Shown here piece by piece: positions 1,155 through 7,744 of a DNA stretch of 10,310 nucleotides. This DNA is from JADFSZ01 sp022560555 [NCBI: PVC group bacterium] (GTDB lineage: Bacteria > GCA-001730085 > JADFSZ01): positions 1-10,310 of the forward strand of contig JADFSZ010000048.1 of NCBI GenBank assembly GCA_022560555.1. Direction: 5' to 3'. A program made the translations under genes and the position numbers. The first letter of the stretch is position 1; each line of letters opens with the position of its first letter. The notes beneath the pieces are model-generated. The model was given only the letters and a program-made list of their open reading frames with translations, ran no database searches and was not told where the DNA came from.

Positions 1155-1385
1155 ATGAACAAATCAGATATAATCGATGGAATGGCAGCTGACGCTGGAG
1201 TCACAAAAGCTGCTGCAAAAAAAGCAAAGGAACAACACTATGCCGATTATGCGGATTTTACTGCCGGAGCCACCCAAGGAGCCGATGACGCATCTAAGTG
1301 GACATTTGGGGGCCTCCCCAACTCTATTGCTGGAAAAGTGGGGTATGCAGTGGGATGGGGCATTGGTGTTTTTAAGGGCCAATAA
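1155..1385 (+). CDS. Small protein with an HU-like N-terminus and a glycine-zipper tail
   Basis: This 76-residue ORF begins like a Bacteroidota HU/histone-like protein: residues 1-24 (MNKSDIIDGMAADAG... ending AAAKKA) closely follow the first two helices of HU. Similarity then stops. The HU beta-saddle, with its VGFGxF and GRNPxTG motifs, is absent in this frame and in the other two forward frames. The remainder (25-76) is hydrophilic to about residue 48. It then has Phe-Gly-Gly (51-53) and a hydrophobic Gly-rich segment with glycines at 63, 67, 71 and 75, three consecutive GxxxG steps. It could be a truncated HU fused to unrelated sequence, or a small membrane-active peptide (class II bacteriocin-like) behind a Gly-Gly leader; the latter is speculation. 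The promoter at 1072-1102 and an A/T-rich start context support expression. Start ATG 1155 is fixed by the HU N-terminus. Confidence 0.6.
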   Translation: MNKSDIIDGMAADAGVTKAAAKKAKEQHYADYADFTAGATQGADDASKWTFGGLPNSIAGKVGYAVGWGIGVFKGQ

Positions 1386-1743: not shown

Positions 1744-1752
1744 TTGCAGGTT

Positions 1753-2298
1753 ATGATCCCGGTGGAAGATCTTACCGAGGTCCAGAGGCAATTCCTTGAG
1801 GAGGAATATGGCCTCGACTTGGAAAAGCGTGTCTCGTCGGCACGCCAATACAATCGCCGCCAAATGAAATTCTGTTTGATATTTCCTCTTTTAGCAATTG
1901 CGCTATATTGGGAGGGAACCTCAGATGTTATGGCCTCTTCCTTCAAGCCGTTCGGGATCATCTCTTGGTGCGTCTTCGGCATTCTTTTTTTTGTCGAAGT
2001 TGCAGGGTGGACGCATTTCTGGATAGGCACCCGATCCGCCCCCCTGGTAAATACTTTATCCGATTCAAACCCTCATAGAAATACCTGGCGCACATTGCTG
2101 GTGCTCTACATCGGTATCAAGACACCCCTATACCTCGTTCCTTTATGGATTGTAGGTCCAGTGATGCTGATTCTTGCGGCCTGGGCAACGAACCGGCCAG
2201 TTCTTGCCTTGGCGTGGCTTGCTCTCGCGGCGATCTATTACTCGTTAAGGATATGGTCCAATCGAAAAGTATTTCATGCGCTTGAAGAAACAATATAA
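1753..2298 (+). CDS. Orphan multi-pass membrane protein of unknown function
   Basis: The function is not recognised. From ATG 1753 the product is 181 residues. It has an acidic/charged cytoplasmic-looking N-terminus (about 1-39, with QRQFLEEEYGLDLEKR) followed by hydrophobic segments near 40-54, 67-87, 113-145 (long, perhaps two passes) and 149-166, and a short basic tail. That suggests four or five membrane passes. A TTG at 1744 would add three residues; ATG is preferred because AGAGAGG ends at 1743, nine bases upstream. No catalytic motif, conserved His/Cys cluster or transporter signature is visible. Base composition is richer in G+C than fmt. It stands alone between two gene-poor stretches and converges on ssrA, so context says little. 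It could be cargo of a mobile segment. It is likely a real gene because of its length, coherent hydropathy and lack of competing frames. Confidence 0.65.
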   Translation: MIPVEDLTEVQRQFLEEEYGLDLEKRVSSARQYNRRQMKFCLIFPLLAIALYWEGTSDVMASSFKPFGIISWCVFGILFFVEVAGWTHFWIGTRSAPLVNTLSDSNPHRNTWRTLLVLYIGIKTPLYLVPLWIVGPVMLILAAWATNRPVLALAWLALAAIYYSLRIWSNRKVFHALEETI

Positions 2299-2423: not shown

Positions 2424-2780
2424 TGGAGGCGGCGGGTATCGAACCCGCGTCCCAAAGGTCCCGCCAAGTAGCATCTACATGCATAGTCTATAAATTAGGA
2501 TCTCGTTTTTTGACACTCCCATAGACAGGATTGTCAAAAAACCAGCCTGAAACGATCTCGCTATATTTCCTCAGGCAAGGGCCTATAGCCAGTCTGTGTT
2601 GCGACATCTTAATCCGCCCACAGACGAAACCTGATTAAGATGTAGCTACATGTTATTTATGCAGCTAGAGCCAACGCTTCATTATTGGCAATTATATGTT
2701 TCAGGTGTTTTAGGAGGCCTCCTGAAACCTCCGCACGCAGCTAAATAGCAAGTTTCCTAGGTCGAATCCAATTCGCCCCC
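2424..2780 (-). ncRNA. ssrA: tmRNA (transfer-messenger RNA)
   Basis: tmRNA frees ribosomes stalled on broken mRNAs by acting first as tRNA-Ala and then as a short message for a degradation tag. The 5' end GGGGGCGAATTGGATTCGAC (2780-2761) contains the hallmark GGATTCGAC. The 3' end forms a T-arm GCGGG-TTCGATA-CCCGC. GGGGGCG (5') pairs with CGCCTCC (3', 2431-2425) as a 7-bp acceptor stem with one G-U, followed by discriminator A (2424); CCA is not encoded. An H-type pseudoknot (PK1) lies just before the tag frame: GGAGG 2732-2728 with CCTCC 2717-2713, interleaved with TTTCAGG 2727-2721 and CCTGAAA 2705-2699. Further G/C-rich stems follow the tag, as expected for PK2-PK4. The 5' 24 nt overlap the 3' end of ptsI on the same strand. 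At 357 nt the length is normal. Confidence 0.97.
2657..2689 (-). CDS. tmRNA proteolysis tag reading frame (ANNEALALAA)
   Basis: Inside the tmRNA, the resume codon GCC (2689-2687) opens a ten-codon frame ANNEALALAA ending in TAA (2659-2657). With the alanine delivered by the tRNA-like domain the added tag would be A-ANNEALALAA. The hydrophobic ALALAA C-terminus is the signal read by ClpXP-type proteases in other bacteria. The frame starts eight bases after the last PK1 strand, in the usual place. Confidence 0.93.
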   Translation of the reverse strand, partial: ANNEALALAA

Positions 2781-4532
2781 ATGAAAGCTATTATATAAGA
2801 GAAGTTCGGGAACTTTCAAGCGTAAAAATTCAACCAGTATTTTCTGAATTTCCTTTCCGGTCGATATCTTTTGAACTTGACTCCAAAGTTTTTGACATTC
2901 CGTACGGGATATGGAGCGGGAAACTTTTTTGATTTCCGAAATAAACGCGGATGGTACGCTGAATTCTTCAAGCCCCATCCCGATGAGGAGGGGAATATAA
3001 ATCGGATCGCTTGCCATTTCACCGCACATGGCTACACGAATATTAGCATCTTTAGCGTCCCGGATAATTTTATCAATAAACCTTAGAACACCCGGATGCG
3101 CGGGATCGTAAAGATAGGCAATGTGTTCATTCACGCGATCTACCGCGAGTGCGTATTGAATGAGATCATTTGTGCCGATACTGAAGAAATCCACATGTGG
3201 AGCCAAAAGATCAGTAATGAGTGCCGCAGAAGGAACTTCGATCATGGCGCCGACGCCGATGTCCGTGTTGATTGTGTGCCCGTCCGCGATCAGTTCTTTT
3301 TTGACAACTTCCAGAACCAAATTGGCTTGGATGAGTTCCTCAAGGTTTGTGATCAAAGGATAAAGAATTTTAAGGTTGCCGTGCTCGTTCGCGCGCAATA
3401 TAGCCCGCAATTGAGTTTTAAAGATATCCTTTTTTTCAAGAGAAAAACGGATAGCCCGCCATCCCATAAAGGGGTTAAGTTCATTCGGAACATTCAGATG
3501 GGACAGAAATTTGTCTCCGCCGAGATCCATGGTTCGAACCACAACTTCGTGGGGGTACATCTTGTCGGCGACAATTTTATAGTTTTCATAATGCTCTTGT
3601 TCTGTCGGAAGATCGGTTCGGTTCATATAGAAAAATTCTGTCCGATAAAGCCCGATTCCTACAGCACCGTGGATCAAAGCGGAATCTGATTCGCTTGGAA
3701 GTTCAATATTGGCCATGAGTTTAAGCTTATGGTCATCGGTGGTGACGGCTGGCAGTGTTTGAAAGACCGACAGGTTCCGGGTGATTTCTTCGAATTTCTT
3801 GATTTCTTCCCGATAGTGCGCGATGAGTTTTTCATTGGGGTTAATCTCGATAATCCCGTGAATTCCGTCAAGAATGATCGTGTCCCCGTATTCCACACGT
3901 TGGGTAATGTCTTCAAGACCGACGATAGCCGGGATCTCAAGGGATCTGGCGATAATCGCTGTATGGCTGGTGCGGGAGCCGATGTCGGTTGCGAAGCCGA
4001 GAACAAAACTTTTATTAATAAACACGGTTTCTGACGGAGCCAGATCGTAGGCGATGACGATGCCCTTTTCTTCAATCGAAGAAAGCGTTTCATGGTGTTT
4101 ACCCAGGAGATTCCTGAGCACGCGTCTTCCGACATCCTGGATATCCGCGGCACGTTCCTTTAAGTACTCATCCTCAATGGATGAAAAGGCCTTAGCGAAT
4201 TTTTGAAGAGATTCATAAAAAACAAATTCCACACAACGCTTTTCTTTTTCTAAACGTCGTATAACTTCTTCGATCAGCATACGATCTTCTAAGACAAGCA
4301 AATGGGCATCAAAAATCTCGGCATGTTTGGTTCCCATTTTGTCCTCGATCCGTGTTTGCATCTCGATCATTTCTTTTCGTGTTTTGATCAAGGCGTCCTC
4401 AAAACGGGCGATTTCTTTGGGAAGATCCTCTTCCTTGATTTCATGTTTCGGGATCGTCAAGTCATCGCGGTCGAGAAGGAGTGCCCTTCCGATCACAATG
4501 CCCGGCGATGCGGCTATGCCTTTATGACTCAT
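2757..4532 (-). CDS. ptsI: PTS enzyme I (phosphoenolpyruvate-protein phosphotransferase)
   Basis: Enzyme I takes phosphate from PEP onto a histidine and passes it to HPr. The 591 residues show the N-terminal domain (GIAASPGIVIGRA at the start), the phospho-His site GSRTSHTAIIARS with His190, and the PEP-binding TIM-barrel domain. In the barrel are LYRTEFFYMNR (Arg297), VRTMDLGGDK (Arg333), GAMIEVPSA, SIGTNDLIQY and the active-site Cys503 in MCGEMASDP. All key residues are present, so it should be active. ATG 4532 follows AGGTTAGGG. It lies 22 bp after ptsH. The family core ends near residue 572; the last ~19 residues (ending HGGELDST) look like an add-on, because their DNA is the ssrA promoter and the first 24 nt of tmRNA, including the TAG stop at 2759-2757. 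It is about 16 residues longer than E. coli EI. No EIIB/EIIC genes are nearby, which suggests a regulatory role. Confidence 0.97.
   Translation of the reverse strand: MSHKGIAASPGIVIGRALLLDRDDLTIPKHEIKEEDLPKEIARFEDALIKTRKEMIEMQTRIEDKMGTKHAEIFDAHLLVLEDRMLIEEVIRRLEKEKRCVEFVFYESLQKFAKAFSSIEDEYLKERAADIQDVGRRVLRNLLGKHHETLSSIEEKGIVIAYDLAPSETVFINKSFVLGFATDIGSRTSHTAIIARSLEIPAIVGLEDITQRVEYGDTIILDGIHGIIEINPNEKLIAHYREEIKKFEEITRNLSVFQTLPAVTTDDHKLKLMANIELPSESDSALIHGAVGIGLYRTEFFYMNRTDLPTEQEHYENYKIVADKMYPHEVVVRTMDLGGDKFLSHLNVPNELNPFMGWRAIRFSLEKKDIFKTQLRAILRANEHGNLKILYPLITNLEELIQANLVLEVVKKELIADGHTINTDIGVGAMIEVPSAALITDLLAPHVDFFSIGTNDLIQYALAVDRVNEHIAYLYDPAHPGVLRFIDKIIRDAKDANIRVAMCGEMASDPIYIPLLIGMGLEEFSVPSAFISEIKKVSRSISRTECQKLWSQVQKISTGKEIQKILVEFLRLKVPELLLYNSFHGGELDST
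2790..2819 (-). promoter_or_regulatory. ssrA promoter embedded in the 3' end of ptsI
   Basis: On the minus strand TTGAAA (2819-2814; 5 of 6 to consensus) is separated by 18 nt from a perfect TATAAT (2795-2790). Seven bases after the -10 falls position 2783, and the mature tmRNA 5' G is at 2780. Transcription would therefore start within about three bases of the mature end and need almost no 5' processing. The whole promoter lies in ptsI coding sequence, under the codons for about residues 574-583. Confidence 0.75.
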
Positions 4533-4554: not shown

Positions 4555-4836
4555 TTAATCTTCGTGGAATTTGAGATCAAAGAGCTCTTTGATCTTTTTG
4601 ATTGCATTTTCGGAATCTTTACCGCATGCTTCGAAAATAAGTTTTGTGTTGTGAGCCGCGGCAAGCATCATGAGGCCCATAATGCTTTTGCCGTTGACTT
4701 TTTGGCCGTTATTTTCAACCGTGATTTCTGACGCAAATGTGTTTGTGAGCTGAACGAGCAATGCTGCCGGACGCGCGTGCAGCCCAAGACGATTTTTAAT
4801 CGTGAGAGTTTTCCGAACGATTTTTTGAGCCGCCAT
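4555..4836 (-). CDS. ptsH: HPr phosphocarrier protein
   Basis: HPr carries phosphate from enzyme I to EIIA proteins and, in bacteria with HprK, is also phosphorylated on a serine for regulation. Starting at ATG 4836 it is 93 residues. The His site is NRLGLHARPAA (His20, equivalent to His15) and the regulatory site is VNGKSIMGLMMLAA (Ser51, equivalent to Ser46), with the usual 31-residue spacing. Both sites are intact. In-frame ATGs at 4863 and 4890 would add 9 or 18 residues, and the latter overlaps rapZ. I prefer 4836 because AGGAT lies about ten bases upstream and the resulting N-terminus (MAAQKIVRKTLTI) fits the family best; 4863 is possible, being four bases after the rapZ stop. The gene sits between rapZ and ptsI. 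Confidence 0.93.
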   Translation of the reverse strand: MAAQKIVRKTLTIKNRLGLHARPAALLVQLTNTFASEITVENNGQKVNGKSIMGLMMLAAAHNTKLIFEACGKDSENAIKKIKELFDLKFHED

Positions 4837-4867
4837 TTTGCTTTTATCCTGTTGAGAGGCCATAATG

Positions 4868-5743
4868 TTAACGGTGCCAACCGATATCACGGTGACTCAC
4901 CGTTACCTCCGTATATTTTTTCTTTAAAAGGATCCGGCAAAATTCGTTGGCAATAACAACGGATCTGTGTTTGCCTCCCGTGCATCCGAAAGAAATCGTT
5001 AGATAGGCACGGCCTTCTTTGATATAAGCCGGAATGAGAAATTCAATTAATTTCCAAGATTTATTCGTAAAATTTTTCGTCAAAGGAAATTCAAGAACGT
5101 ATTCCTCGACTTTTTTATCCATTCCCGTATAAGGTCTCAAATCTTCCACATAATGGGGATTGGGAAGAAACCGCACGTCAAACACAAGATCGCTGTCGGG
5201 GGGAATCCCGTAGCGATAACTGAACGAGTTGATGGTGATTTTCATTCGGGACTTTTTTTCAATAGGGCTGAAGGCCTGAAAGATACGATCCTTCAATTCA
5301 TGAACATTCAAGGGAGATGTGTCTATGACATGGTCAGCCGAGTTGAGAATTTTCCGGAGTTTTTGACGTTCGATCTGGATGCTGTCAAGAACAGTTCCGG
5401 AACCGGAAAGCGGGTGTTTGCGTCTCGTTTCACTGAATCGTCTTAAGAGAACGTCGTCCGAGGCTTCCAGGAACAAGATGCTGTAAGGAGTGCCGAGATT
5501 TTTTAATGTGTCTAATTCGTTGAAAAGGTCGTCAAAGAAGATCCCTTCGCGAATATCGATCACAAGGGCTACGCGTTTGATATTCGCATCTGTTTGCTGA
5601 CAGATCTCAGCGAATTTTGTAATGAGAAGCACGGGGAGGTTATCAATGCAGAAGTACCCCAGCTCCTCGAACGTTTTTAAAACGTGACTTTTACCGGCCC
5701 CCGAAATTCCTGTAATAATAACAAATTGGTGATCGCTTTTCAT
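4868..5743 (-). CDS. rapZ: RapZ/YvcJ-family nucleotide- and RNA-binding protein
   Basis: RapZ in E. coli is an RNA-binding adaptor controlling glucosamine-6-phosphate synthase through small RNAs; YvcJ in B. subtilis is a nucleotide-binding protein. The 291 residues begin with a P-loop, GISGAGKS (12-19), followed by DNLP (34-37), VIDIRE (61-66) and FLEASDDVLLRRFSETRRKHPL. The C-terminal domain shows SFSYRYGIPPDSDLVFDVRF, PNPHYVEDLRPYTG and GCTGGKHRSV (253-262), all signatures of the family. The length is typical. ATG 5743 overlaps the hprK stop in an ATGA arrangement, implying translational coupling. Clustering with hprK, ptsH and EIIA is common in Gram-negatives, usually beside rpoN. Which RNA or enzyme it controls here is unknown. 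Confidence 0.95.
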   Translation of the reverse strand: MKSDHQFVIITGISGAGKSHVLKTFEELGYFCIDNLPVLLITKFAEICQQTDANIKRVALVIDIREGIFFDDLFNELDTLKNLGTPYSILFLEASDDVLLRRFSETRRKHPLSGSGTVLDSIQIERQKLRKILNSADHVIDTSPLNVHELKDRIFQAFSPIEKKSRMKITINSFSYRYGIPPDSDLVFDVRFLPNPHYVEDLRPYTGMDKKVEEYVLEFPLTKNFTNKSWKLIEFLIPAYIKEGRAYLTISFGCTGGKHRSVVIANEFCRILLKKKYTEVTVSHRDIGWHR

Positions 5744-6705
5744 GACGAATGACTTTCCCTTGTGTTTGTTTTAGCCGTGCTGGCTAAGCGTTCCAGGAGA
5801 CTTTCTTCAAGTGATTTTGCTGAGTCGATTCCCATACGTCTCAATCTCTCATTGGAGCAGGCGACTTCAATTAAAATGGCAATGTTTCTTCCCGGGCGGA
5901 TAGGGACGAGGTAATGCGGTAGCCATTGATCCAAAATTTCATATGTTTTCAAGTCTAGCCCCAGGCGGTCATAATCTTTGTTTTTGACCCACTCTTCAAG
6001 AGTGACGATAATGCTCACGATTTTTTGATTGCGAATGGCGCCTATCCCGAATATTTTTTGAATATCAATAATGCCGAGACCGCGAATCTCCATATGATGA
6101 CGAATGATATCGGAACGGCGTCCGACGATCAATTTTCTCGCGGTTAATTTGAGATGAATAATGTCATCGCTCACAAGACGGTGTCCCCGCTTGATGAGTT
6201 CCAGGGCGCACTCACTTTTACCGATTCCGCTTTTTCCTAATATGAGGACACCTATGCCGTAAACATCCATAAGGGTTCCGGATATGGTGAGAGCAGGAGA
6301 AAATTGCTCTTCAAGGTAAAATGTGATTGTCGCGCTGATTTTACTTGTTGAAAGAGAACTTTGAAAAATGGGAATCTGCTTTGCCTTGGCAACTTCCTTA
6401 AGCTCGTTGGGGATGGATAGGCGCCGGGCAACCACAATACATGGGAAATTAAAGTCGCAAAACTTTTTTAAAAGGGTTTTGCGGGTTTTCCCAGACAAGC
6501 CCGCTAAATAGGAAATTTCGGCTTTGCCGAGAATTTGAATTCTTTTAGAGGCGAAATAGGCATAGTAACCTTTAAGGGCCAGCCCGGGACGGTTGACCTC
6601 GGCGACCTTAATTTTTCTTTCCAGATCGTTCGGAGGCCCGATCCTACGGAGCCTCAACTCTTCTTTTTGGTCCTCATAAAACTTGGTTATGGTAATAAAG
6701 GGCAT
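5740..6705 (-). CDS. hprK: HPr kinase/phosphorylase, catalytic His replaced by Ser
   Basis: HprK phosphorylates HPr on Ser46 and, in bifunctional forms, removes that phosphate by phosphorolysis. The 321 residues have an N-terminal regulatory domain (about 1-130) and a C-terminal P-loop kinase domain. The Walker A motif is GKSGIGKS (157-164, Lys163), acidic pair Asp180-Asp181, family signature MEIRGLGIID (205-214), Arg247 in YDRLG, and VPIRPGRN (267-274), the segment linked to dephosphorylation. The distances Lys163-Arg247 and residue 142-Lys163 equal those of B. subtilis Lys159-Arg243 and His138-Lys159. Residue 142, normally the active-site His of an HGxLxDxYG motif, is Ser here (codon TCC). 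Start ATG 6705 lies two bases after the EIIA stop, with GAGGTGG inside the EIIA 3' end as ribosome site. The stop overlaps the rapZ start. Confidence 0.95.
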   Translation of the reverse strand: MPFITITKFYEDQKEELRLRRIGPPNDLERKIKVAEVNRPGLALKGYYAYFASKRIQILGKAEISYLAGLSGKTRKTLLKKFCDFNFPCIVVARRLSIPNELKEVAKAKQIPIFQSSLSTSKISATITFYLEEQFSPALTISGTLMDVYGIGVLILGKSGIGKSECALELIKRGHRLVSDDIIHLKLTARKLIVGRRSDIIRHHMEIRGLGIIDIQKIFGIGAIRNQKIVSIIVTLEEWVKNKDYDRLGLDLKTYEILDQWLPHYLVPIRPGRNIAILIEVACSNERLRRMGIDSAKSLEESLLERLASTAKTNTRESHSS

Positions 6706-6707
6706 GG

Positions 6708-7172
6708 CTAATCCACCTCGGCATTTTGCGTCTGGAATACACGGCGAATTTCATCCGGAGATTGTGAGTTTTTTAATTCAAGACGGTTTTTTTCGCTTTT
6801 GAGAATGCGCGCGAAGCGGGCGAGGATTTGAACGTGGAGCTTTTCTTTCCCCTCGGGAAACAGCACCATCATTATGAGATATACTTTTTGGGCGTCGATA
6901 GCCGAAAAATCAATTCCCTTGTCGGATTTGCCGATAGCCAAGGACACTTCTTCTAAGTCAGAAATATTGGCATGCGGGATGGCAAACCCTTCCCCGATAG
7001 CTGTGCTCGCCATAGATTCCCGATGCAGCAAACGTTTAAAAGTATCATCGGGATCCGTAATAAGATTTTTTTCATGGAGCAAGGATGCCAATTCTTTGAA
7101 GGCTTCATCCCTCGTTTGAGCTTGCAGGTTAATTTTAATCACGCTTTGGGCCAAGAGTTTTTGTATATCCAT
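6708..7172 (-). CDS. ptsN: PTS EIIA domain protein, fructose/nitrogen-regulatory family
   Basis: This 154-residue single-domain protein belongs to the EIIA-fructose/EIIA-Ntr family, which accepts phosphate from HPr on a histidine. The site is GEGFAIPHA with His67, preceded by MASTAIG. The C-terminal half has the expected VYLIMMVLFPEGKEKLHVQIL core. No EIIB or EIIC domain follows, and it is next to hprK/rapZ/hpf as ptsN is in many Gram-negatives, so a regulatory role is more likely than sugar uptake. The symbol ptsN rests on that context. ATG 7172 has AGGGAAGG about six bases upstream. It lies 20 bp after hpf and two bases before hprK. Confidence 0.93.
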   Translation of the reverse strand: MDIQKLLAQSVIKINLQAQTRDEAFKELASLLHEKNLITDPDDTFKRLLHRESMASTAIGEGFAIPHANISDLEEVSLAIGKSDKGIDFSAIDAQKVYLIMMVLFPEGKEKLHVQILARFARILKSEKNRLELKNSQSPDEIRRVFQTQNAEVD

Positions 7173-7192: not shown

Positions 7193-7744
7193 TTAAAAAT
7201 CCGGTTCAATGAGACCGAGATTCCCGTCTGTTCGTTTATAGACAACATTCACTTTTTCGGTTGTGGAGTTAAAAAACGTTAAAAAATCATACCCGAGGAT
7301 CTTGAGCTGTAACAACGCTTCTTCAATCCCCATCGGTTTGATGGCGAATGTTTCCGAACGAATGAGTTTAGGTATCGCGCTTGTAGTTGTTGTGTTGTCT
7401 TCCGACGCGAGAATGTTCATGCGCATATGACCGCGGAACGATTTGTGTTTTCTTTTATGATCTTTAAGTTTCTGATTATGTTTCTTTAATTGTTTTTTGA
7501 TTTTCTCAACGACAAGATCCACGGAGGCATACATGTCCTTACTTTCAGACACCCCCGTGATAAACGCGTCTTTGGTTTGCAGTGTCATTTCCGCGACATG
7601 CTGGTAGGATTTTTCTAAACTCATGATGACATGAATCGCGATGATGGGTTTGCAGTACTGTTCGAATTTTTCCGCCTTTGTCTCAATATATTTTTTAAGC
7701 GGAACCGTAAGTTTTAAATGCCGACCGGTAATTGTGATATGCAA
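7193..7744 (-). CDS. hpf: Long-form ribosome hibernation promoting factor, TTG start
   Basis: HPF binds the small ribosomal subunit and stores ribosomes as inactive 100S dimers in stress or starvation. The 183 residues contain both parts of the long form. The N-terminal S30AE domain (about 1-95) starts HITITGRH and ends in a Lys-rich helix. After a linker, the C-terminal dimerisation domain (about 126-183) reads IRSETFAIKPMGIEEALLQL...NVVYKRTDGNLGLIEP. The start is TTG at 7744-7742: it gives the canonical N-terminus and is preceded by a strong AAGGAG (7757-7752), seven bases away. No ATG fits. It follows the zinc-ribbon gene and precedes EIIA. Long HPF in a Gram-negative-looking operon with PTS regulators suggests joint control by energy status. 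Confidence 0.95.
   Translation of the reverse strand: MHITITGRHLKLTVPLKKYIETKAEKFEQYCKPIIAIHVIMSLEKSYQHVAEMTLQTKDAFITGVSESKDMYASVDLVVEKIKKQLKKHNQKLKDHKRKHKSFRGHMRMNILASEDNTTTTSAIPKLIRSETFAIKPMGIEEALLQLKILGYDFLTFFNSTTEKVNVVYKRTDGNLGLIEPDF

Follow-up and report, generated by a model that had tools for sequence, protein, structure and literature searches.

The enzyme I gene ptsI ends inside the tmRNA gene ssrA in a draft bacterial genome: an overlap probably tolerated as a by-product of close gene packing

The closest described counterpart of the arrangement analysed here is the smpB-ssrA overlap of Carsonella, for which Hudson, Lau and Williams (2014) argued that tmRNA maturation leads to a non-stop message, an "interesting feedback situation" (PMC4131195). 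Their Table 4 gives 250 upstream same-strand Pfam coding sequences that overlap t(m)RNA genes, and they report an smpB-ssrA overlap nowhere except in Carsonella (PMC4131195). A related case was presented by Mukai (2021), with selC nested in selB and processing proposed to yield a non-stop mRNA (PMC8124441). Finally, a review describes the arfA gene of E. coli, where experiments established a non-stop mRNA that is made by cleavage and is under tmRNA control (PMC3989581).

The overlap between ptsI and ssrA described here is a further case of this kind, and the non-stop mechanism that it brings to mind was published in 2014 and 2021. It lies in a 10,310-nucleotide stretch of contig JADFSZ010000048.1, called the window below. 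The features of the window that bear on the overlap are as follows.

2424-2780 (ARAGORN) or 2423-2780 (Rfam RF00023), minus strand: ssrA, the tmRNA gene
2657-2689, minus strand: tag frame of the tmRNA, ANNEALALAA plus stop, tmRNA nt 92-124 (ARAGORN and sequence reading)
2757-2759, minus strand: stop codon TAG of ptsI, identical with tmRNA nt 22-24 (read directly)
2757-2780, minus strand: the overlap, in which tmRNA nt 1-24 are the last seven enzyme I codons (GGELDST) and the stop TAG (read directly)
between 2781 and 2780, minus strand: expected RNase P cut, between enzyme I codons CAT and GGG, placed from the Rfam and ARAGORN 5' end
2790-2795, minus strand: -10 element TATAAT of the presumed ssrA promoter, within ptsI (sequence scan, promoter scoring)
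2814-2819, minus strand: -35 element TTGAAA of the presumed ssrA promoter, within ptsI (sequence scan, promoter scoring)
2757-4532, minus strand: ptsI, phosphotransferase system enzyme I (EI), 591 aa (TIGR01417, E 3.8e-193, residues 4-566)
4555-4890, minus strand: ptsH (HPr), start perhaps further inside (TIGR01003)
4868-5743, minus strand: rapZ (NF003828)
5740-6705, minus strand: hprK, overlapping rapZ by 4 nt (TIGR00679)
6708-7172, minus strand: PTS IIA, ptsN-like (TIGR00848 and TIGR01419, both below curated cut-offs)
7193-7744, minus strand: hpf, ribosome hibernation factor family (TIGR00741)

The overlap is real, and neither gene is in doubt. The 591-aa ORF (4532-2757) matches three Pfam domains of PEP-utilising enzymes as well as TIGR01417, so that the EI N-terminal, mobile and PEP-binding domains are all present over its full length. 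On the RNA side, RF00023 matches the minus strand at 2780-2423 with 184.9 bits (E 1.5e-74), and the tag predicted by ARAGORN is an ordinary one of 10 aa. The 24 nucleotides GGGGGCGAATTGGATTCGACCTAG are tmRNA nt 1-24 and read GGELDST and a stop in the EI frame, with His584 (CAT) as the codon immediately preceding nt 1. The nesting claimed by the sequence-only reading, with nt 1-21 encoding GGELDST and the stop TAG at nt 22-24, was thereby borne out, and its coordinates proved correct throughout. As in the overlaps counted by Hudson et al., there is a valid tmRNA gene and a same-strand coding sequence of a recognised family with its stop inside the RNA gene. The overlap is known from one draft contig. 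Here one and the same stretch of DNA codes for protein and specifies the 5' strand of a structured RNA, whose presumed promoter also lies within ptsI. Given that the two genes abut, 24 nt of overlap is not unlikely, as the EI frame is free of stop codons between -60 and +20 (counted from tmRNA nt 1).

The likeness to Carsonella smpB-ssrA is that a same-strand upstream coding sequence ends inside tmRNA, where 5' maturation should give a non-stop substrate of tmRNA; unlike that case, which concerns smpB in a tiny endosymbiont genome, the upstream gene here is ptsI, a promoter-like site lies inside it, and the genome is a 1.66-Mb draft (compare PMC4131195). The locus shares with selB/selC a structural RNA gene in the 3' end of a coding sequence, an extended protein and a proposed non-stop mRNA, whereas that report concerns mostly whole tRNA-Sec genes in diverse Alphaproteobacteria, as against a 24-nt overlap with no known conservation (PMC8124441). 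With arfA it would share the loss of an mRNA stop by RNA cleavage and the tagging of the product by tmRNA; in arfA, however, according to the review, RNase III cuts a hairpin within the coding sequence and the evidence is experimental, whereas here an RNase P cut is predicted (PMC3989581). No ptsI-ssrA overlap was seen in literature listings covering open-licence PubMed Central papers.

The promoter sequence that the sequence-only reading had placed inside ptsI, TTGAAA-N18-TATAAT, was also confirmed. It matches the consensus at 11 of 12 positions and lies in the last ptsI codons, with TATAAT nine bases ahead of tmRNA nt 1; a scan of 2300-2900 found three promoter-like sites, against a mean of 0.9 in shuffles. 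A simple -35/-10 score was computed over the 70 bases upstream of tmRNA for 212 tmRNA loci, and the window ranked 4th of the 212 upstream regions. Of 100 shuffles of the window's upstream sequence none scored as high, and of 212 control regions taken 130-200 nt upstream one did. Across the 212 loci, the 120 bases upstream of tmRNA contain 38 exact TATAAT in all, and 24 of these start between -40 and -11; therefore, at least some ssrA genes have their own promoter near the mature end. Judged by its sequence, the site in the window supports independent transcription of the tmRNA, the supply of which need not depend on ptsI transcription because ssrA has a promoter sequence of its own. Between the -35 and -10 elements there is a perfect dyad, AAGTTC-CC-GAACTT (minus strand, window 2802-2815). 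It was considered as a regulatory site and rejected: its core GTTCNNGAAC is not enriched, with 33 sites genome-wide versus 42 for the reversed control.

The C-terminal end of EI was compared at 114 EI loci (a few genomes are counted twice, and four loci with 3-6 residues past the anchor column are probably misaligned), with tail length counted as the residues that follow a conserved Arg close to the C-terminus. This length is 52 in the window; the median of the 114 loci is 40, and 3 of them have at least 52. His584, the last residue before the overlap, is 45 residues past the Arg, and 107 of the 114 loci have at most 46. The window also resembles a close relative, L184, almost to the tmRNA (VPELLLYNSFH here versus LPDLVIYNDKY there). 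The EI frame thus looks natural up to about tmRNA nt 1, with GGELDST apparently the addition made by the overlap; it is mainly the tmRNA-coded residues that exceed most relatives' ends among the 114 loci. The proposal that all of the promoter-coded stretch forms an additional EI tail was ruled out, since the EI ends of relatives span that range. The seven-residue tail GGELDST is presumably harmless.

The sequence-only reading had named related genomes without a shared ptsI-ssrA arrangement as evidence against it, and as far as distant relatives show the arrangement is indeed not shared. Among named genomes, those with the EI sequences closest to the window's mostly carry the title Omnitrophota; 193 Omnitrophota genomes, a set without the window's own genome, were searched for tmRNA and for EI. 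Among the 120 with both genes among the matches listed (one tmRNA place, in G059, came from a separate tmRNA search), ssrA adjoins ptsI in none; the two genes share a contig in 8, the nearest pair being 56.7 kb apart. A broader set comprised 59 genomes, the window's and 58 relatives. Both genes were among the matches listed in 40 of them, where the only adjacent pair is that of the window itself, leaving 0 of 39 relatives. These counts come from draft genomes, which are not independent events; genes on different contigs were scored as not adjacent, and adjacency across contig ends is invisible. Conserved ptsI-ssrA linkage was not found in the 120 Omnitrophota genomes and 39 broader relatives with both genes listed. 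ARAGORN, run on 118 loci, found a tmRNA in 1 of 80 EI-relative loci (L087), more than 4 kb from EI, with several loci ending at contig ends. In the one other same-phylum genome compared (G001), which belongs to another family, ssrA, ptsI and smpB lie on three contigs. A foreign origin of ssrA was considered as well and is not supported: 19 of the 23 nhmmer matches listed are from Omnitrophota, and the smallest distance in a FastTree phylogeny is to the tmRNA of G001.

Overlaps of ssrA with other upstream genes were surveyed at the 212 tmRNA loci, made up of 54 and 10 genomes from two other tmRNA searches and 148 from the Omnitrophota search. The survey covers the Omnitrophota matches listed, at or above Rfam's cut-off, and upstream ORFs of at least 90 aa; it leaves out L121 (the same place as L027), L129 (no upstream sequence) and G039 (an 88-nt match). 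A recognised upstream gene ends 8-37 nt inside tmRNA at 9 of the 212 loci: seven are smpB, one is a MinD/ParA-type ATPase and one is the present ptsI. The ptsI stop is at +24 and the ATPase stop at +37. Among the smpB genes, the stop is at +10 in L008 (UAA, nt 8-10) and at +8 in L027, L176, L217, L240, L257 and L264 (UGA, nt 6-8). In three more loci (L236, L251, L274) smpB reaches only nt 1 of tmRNA, with the final G of its TAG stop. Seven further ORFs of at least 90 aa that run 8-124 nt into tmRNA (L007, L018, L026, L273, L276, L341, L348) were set aside, having no Pfam match at 0.001.

The smpB cases are from draft genomes with predicted tmRNA 5' ends, and each of the seven genes matches SmpB over nearly the whole profile. 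Five are Omnitrophota loci; the others are L027, from the same genome as L041 and titled Desantisbacteria, and L008, from a 2.1-Mb genome (G046). A same-strand smpB lies within about 1.1 kb upstream of ssrA at 147 of the 212 loci, and 7 of these 147 have the overlap. The stops at +8 come from the UGA within the tmRNA start GGGGGUGA, which offers no stop codon between +1 and +8; because there is no earlier stop, an smpB whose frame crosses nt 1 in the appropriate phase will end at +8 without any selection. On a FastTree tree of the 147 SmpB proteins (last 175 residues, C-terminal columns included) the seven overlaps need seven changes, and ten, counting those at +1, need ten, so that they are scattered. 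The existence of smpB-ssrA overlaps outside Carsonella makes the proposed self-feedback of SmpB and tmRNA testable on sequences of more than one lineage.

The remaining overlap, at L124, involves the following gene.

L124:1844-2644, minus strand: MinD/ParA/CbiA-type ATPase, ending 37 nt inside tmRNA (Pfam, ORF position)

This ATPase, which we take to be CooC-like, contains a strong promoter-like sequence ahead of ssrA (TTGACT-N17-TAAAAT), as ptsI does in the window. Scattered overlaps with unrelated genes fit recurrent close packing better than a conserved circuit between the PTS and ribosome rescue.

The best explanation of the ptsI-ssrA overlap, to which we give a probability of roughly 70%, is that it is a tolerated by-product of close packing rather than a selected circuit. 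At the locus, ssrA abuts ptsI so closely that the EI frame runs 24 nt into the RNA gene and borrows its stop from tmRNA nt 22-24. Most of the tmRNA would come from a sigma-70-type promoter of its own that sits within the final codons of ptsI, with transcription probably beginning no more than a few nucleotides from the mature 5' end. A ptsI mRNA long enough to include its stop codon also carries the 5' strand of tmRNA. If read-through RNA folds and is cut by RNase P at nt 1, exactly between two codons as predicted, the ptsI message would end after the His584 codon as a non-stop mRNA, and trailing ribosomes would need trans-translation by tmRNA-SmpB. This part of the earlier non-stop claim stands, in that removal of the stop follows logically from an RNase P cut in the read-through RNA; a feedback loop as an evolved device is not supported. 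The overlap could make some ptsI messages need rescue.

Folding predictions are compatible with processing of such a transcript. Even when preceded by the ptsI leader, the acceptor stem should still form, at a penalty of 1.9 kcal/mol. The free fold suggests that the ptsI 3' end sequesters the tmRNA 5' strand, but this was rejected given the low cost of a forced stem. Of 150 synonymous leaders 78 gave an equal or larger penalty, as did 27 of 150 shuffled ones, and the modelling gives no sign that the leader is tuned for or against tmRNA folding. The by-product reading is based on distant relatives, and short-range conservation would suggest function. It also has to accommodate the loss of a stop codon, which is costly and might be selected against if neither tolerated nor useful.

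The overlap might also be an artefact: either an indel within the final 50 nt of ptsI or a chimeric assembly join could have created the read-through into ssrA. The single draft genome, in 222 contigs, leaves room for such an error, and shifting the frame by one base somewhere from about -52 to -13 would leave an EI of ordinary length that ends at TAA or TAG in the -10 region, where another frame has these codons starting at -13 and -10. This is nevertheless unlikely, as the frame is relative-like almost to the tmRNA (VPELLLYN against LPDLVIYN in L184) and the tree distance to same-phylum G001 makes the RNA gene native-looking, although a bad join would still be compatible with the latter.

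We consider it equally improbable that tmRNA derives solely from a processed ptsI transcript, as may hold where smpB abuts ssrA. Shared order and strand make co-transcription natural, and no terminator-like site was found by the scan of 2300-2900. Against this stands the internal promoter score, 4th of 212, while promoter scores are low where smpB abuts or overlaps ssrA: the raw median is 2.7 (n=37), versus 6.0 (n=75; P 3e-6) with smpB at a distance of more than 60 nt. That contrast is partly one of base composition and is weak against the loci's own shuffles (median z 0.04 versus 0.47, P 0.19); the corrected difference between the abutting or overlapping loci and 65 loci without smpB has P 0.0065. 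At none of the seven smpB overlap loci does an upstream promoter-like site score above 95 of 100 shuffles, the closest being L027, where 7 of 100 shuffles are as good.

A broader proposal is that ribosome rescue is repeatedly controlled through maturation-coupled loss of an upstream stop; this we likewise regard as improbable. If it were true, tmRNA made from an smpB-overlap transcript would turn the smpB mRNA into a tmRNA substrate, and the ptsI and ATPase overlaps would be looser versions, with strong promoter-like sites of their own and another gene drawn into the loop.

Least likely of all is a selected circuit in which tmRNA maturation truncates the ptsI mRNA and the resulting EI is tagged and destroyed, so that PTS output drops with active processing and rises when tmRNA is busy: the predicted cut does follow a whole codon, RNase P RNA and SmpB are both encoded, arfA is a precedent for programmed non-stop messages controlled by tmRNA (PMC3989581) and equivalent proposals exist for smpB (PMC4131195) and selB (PMC8124441), but the arrangement is absent from every relative examined, ssrA has its own promoter sequence, the leader shows no sign of tuning and the spacer dyad is not enriched. 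The feedback loop between PTS and ribosome rescue put forward by the sequence-only reading is hence unsupported as an evolved device: the arrangement is not shared by the relatives examined, ssrA has its own promoter sequence, and overlaps of the same kind occur with unrelated upstream genes.

The by-product reading is set in a compact neighbourhood. The genes hpf, ptsN, hprK, rapZ, ptsH and ptsI form a tight run, and ssrA follows without a gap at its 3' end; ptsN and hprK are 2 nt apart, ptsH and ptsI 22 nt, and hprK and rapZ overlap by 4 nt. In the host genome, smpB is on a different contig from ssrA. Convergent with ssrA is a membrane-protein-like ORF (window 1744-2298, plus strand) with no family match above cut-off. 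A small 76-aa ORF (window 1155-1385, plus strand) has no Pfam match, and a second copy was not found in the host genome; its first ~24 residues presumably resemble the HU N-terminus, and the tail after them is glycine-rich and partly hydrophobic.

Tags predicted by ARAGORN at the Omnitrophota tmRNA loci (L149-L178, L214-L331, L122, L123, L125, L126, L128 and L130) are mostly very long. They have at least 15 aa in 115 of 134 cases (median 24), compared with 6 of 52 in the broader relatives, and ARAGORN gave no tag at 20 of 154 loci. Many of the Omnitrophota tags listed do not end in LAA, e.g. ANDNYDVVAEAEAILAGAEAPALV. Long tags of this kind resemble the long tags of Mycoplasma. The tmRNA of the other same-phylum genome (L332, from G001) has a 30-aa tag, AKSSVVKEVEIPTNVVPFKAFNIGMMPLAA, versus 10 aa in the window.
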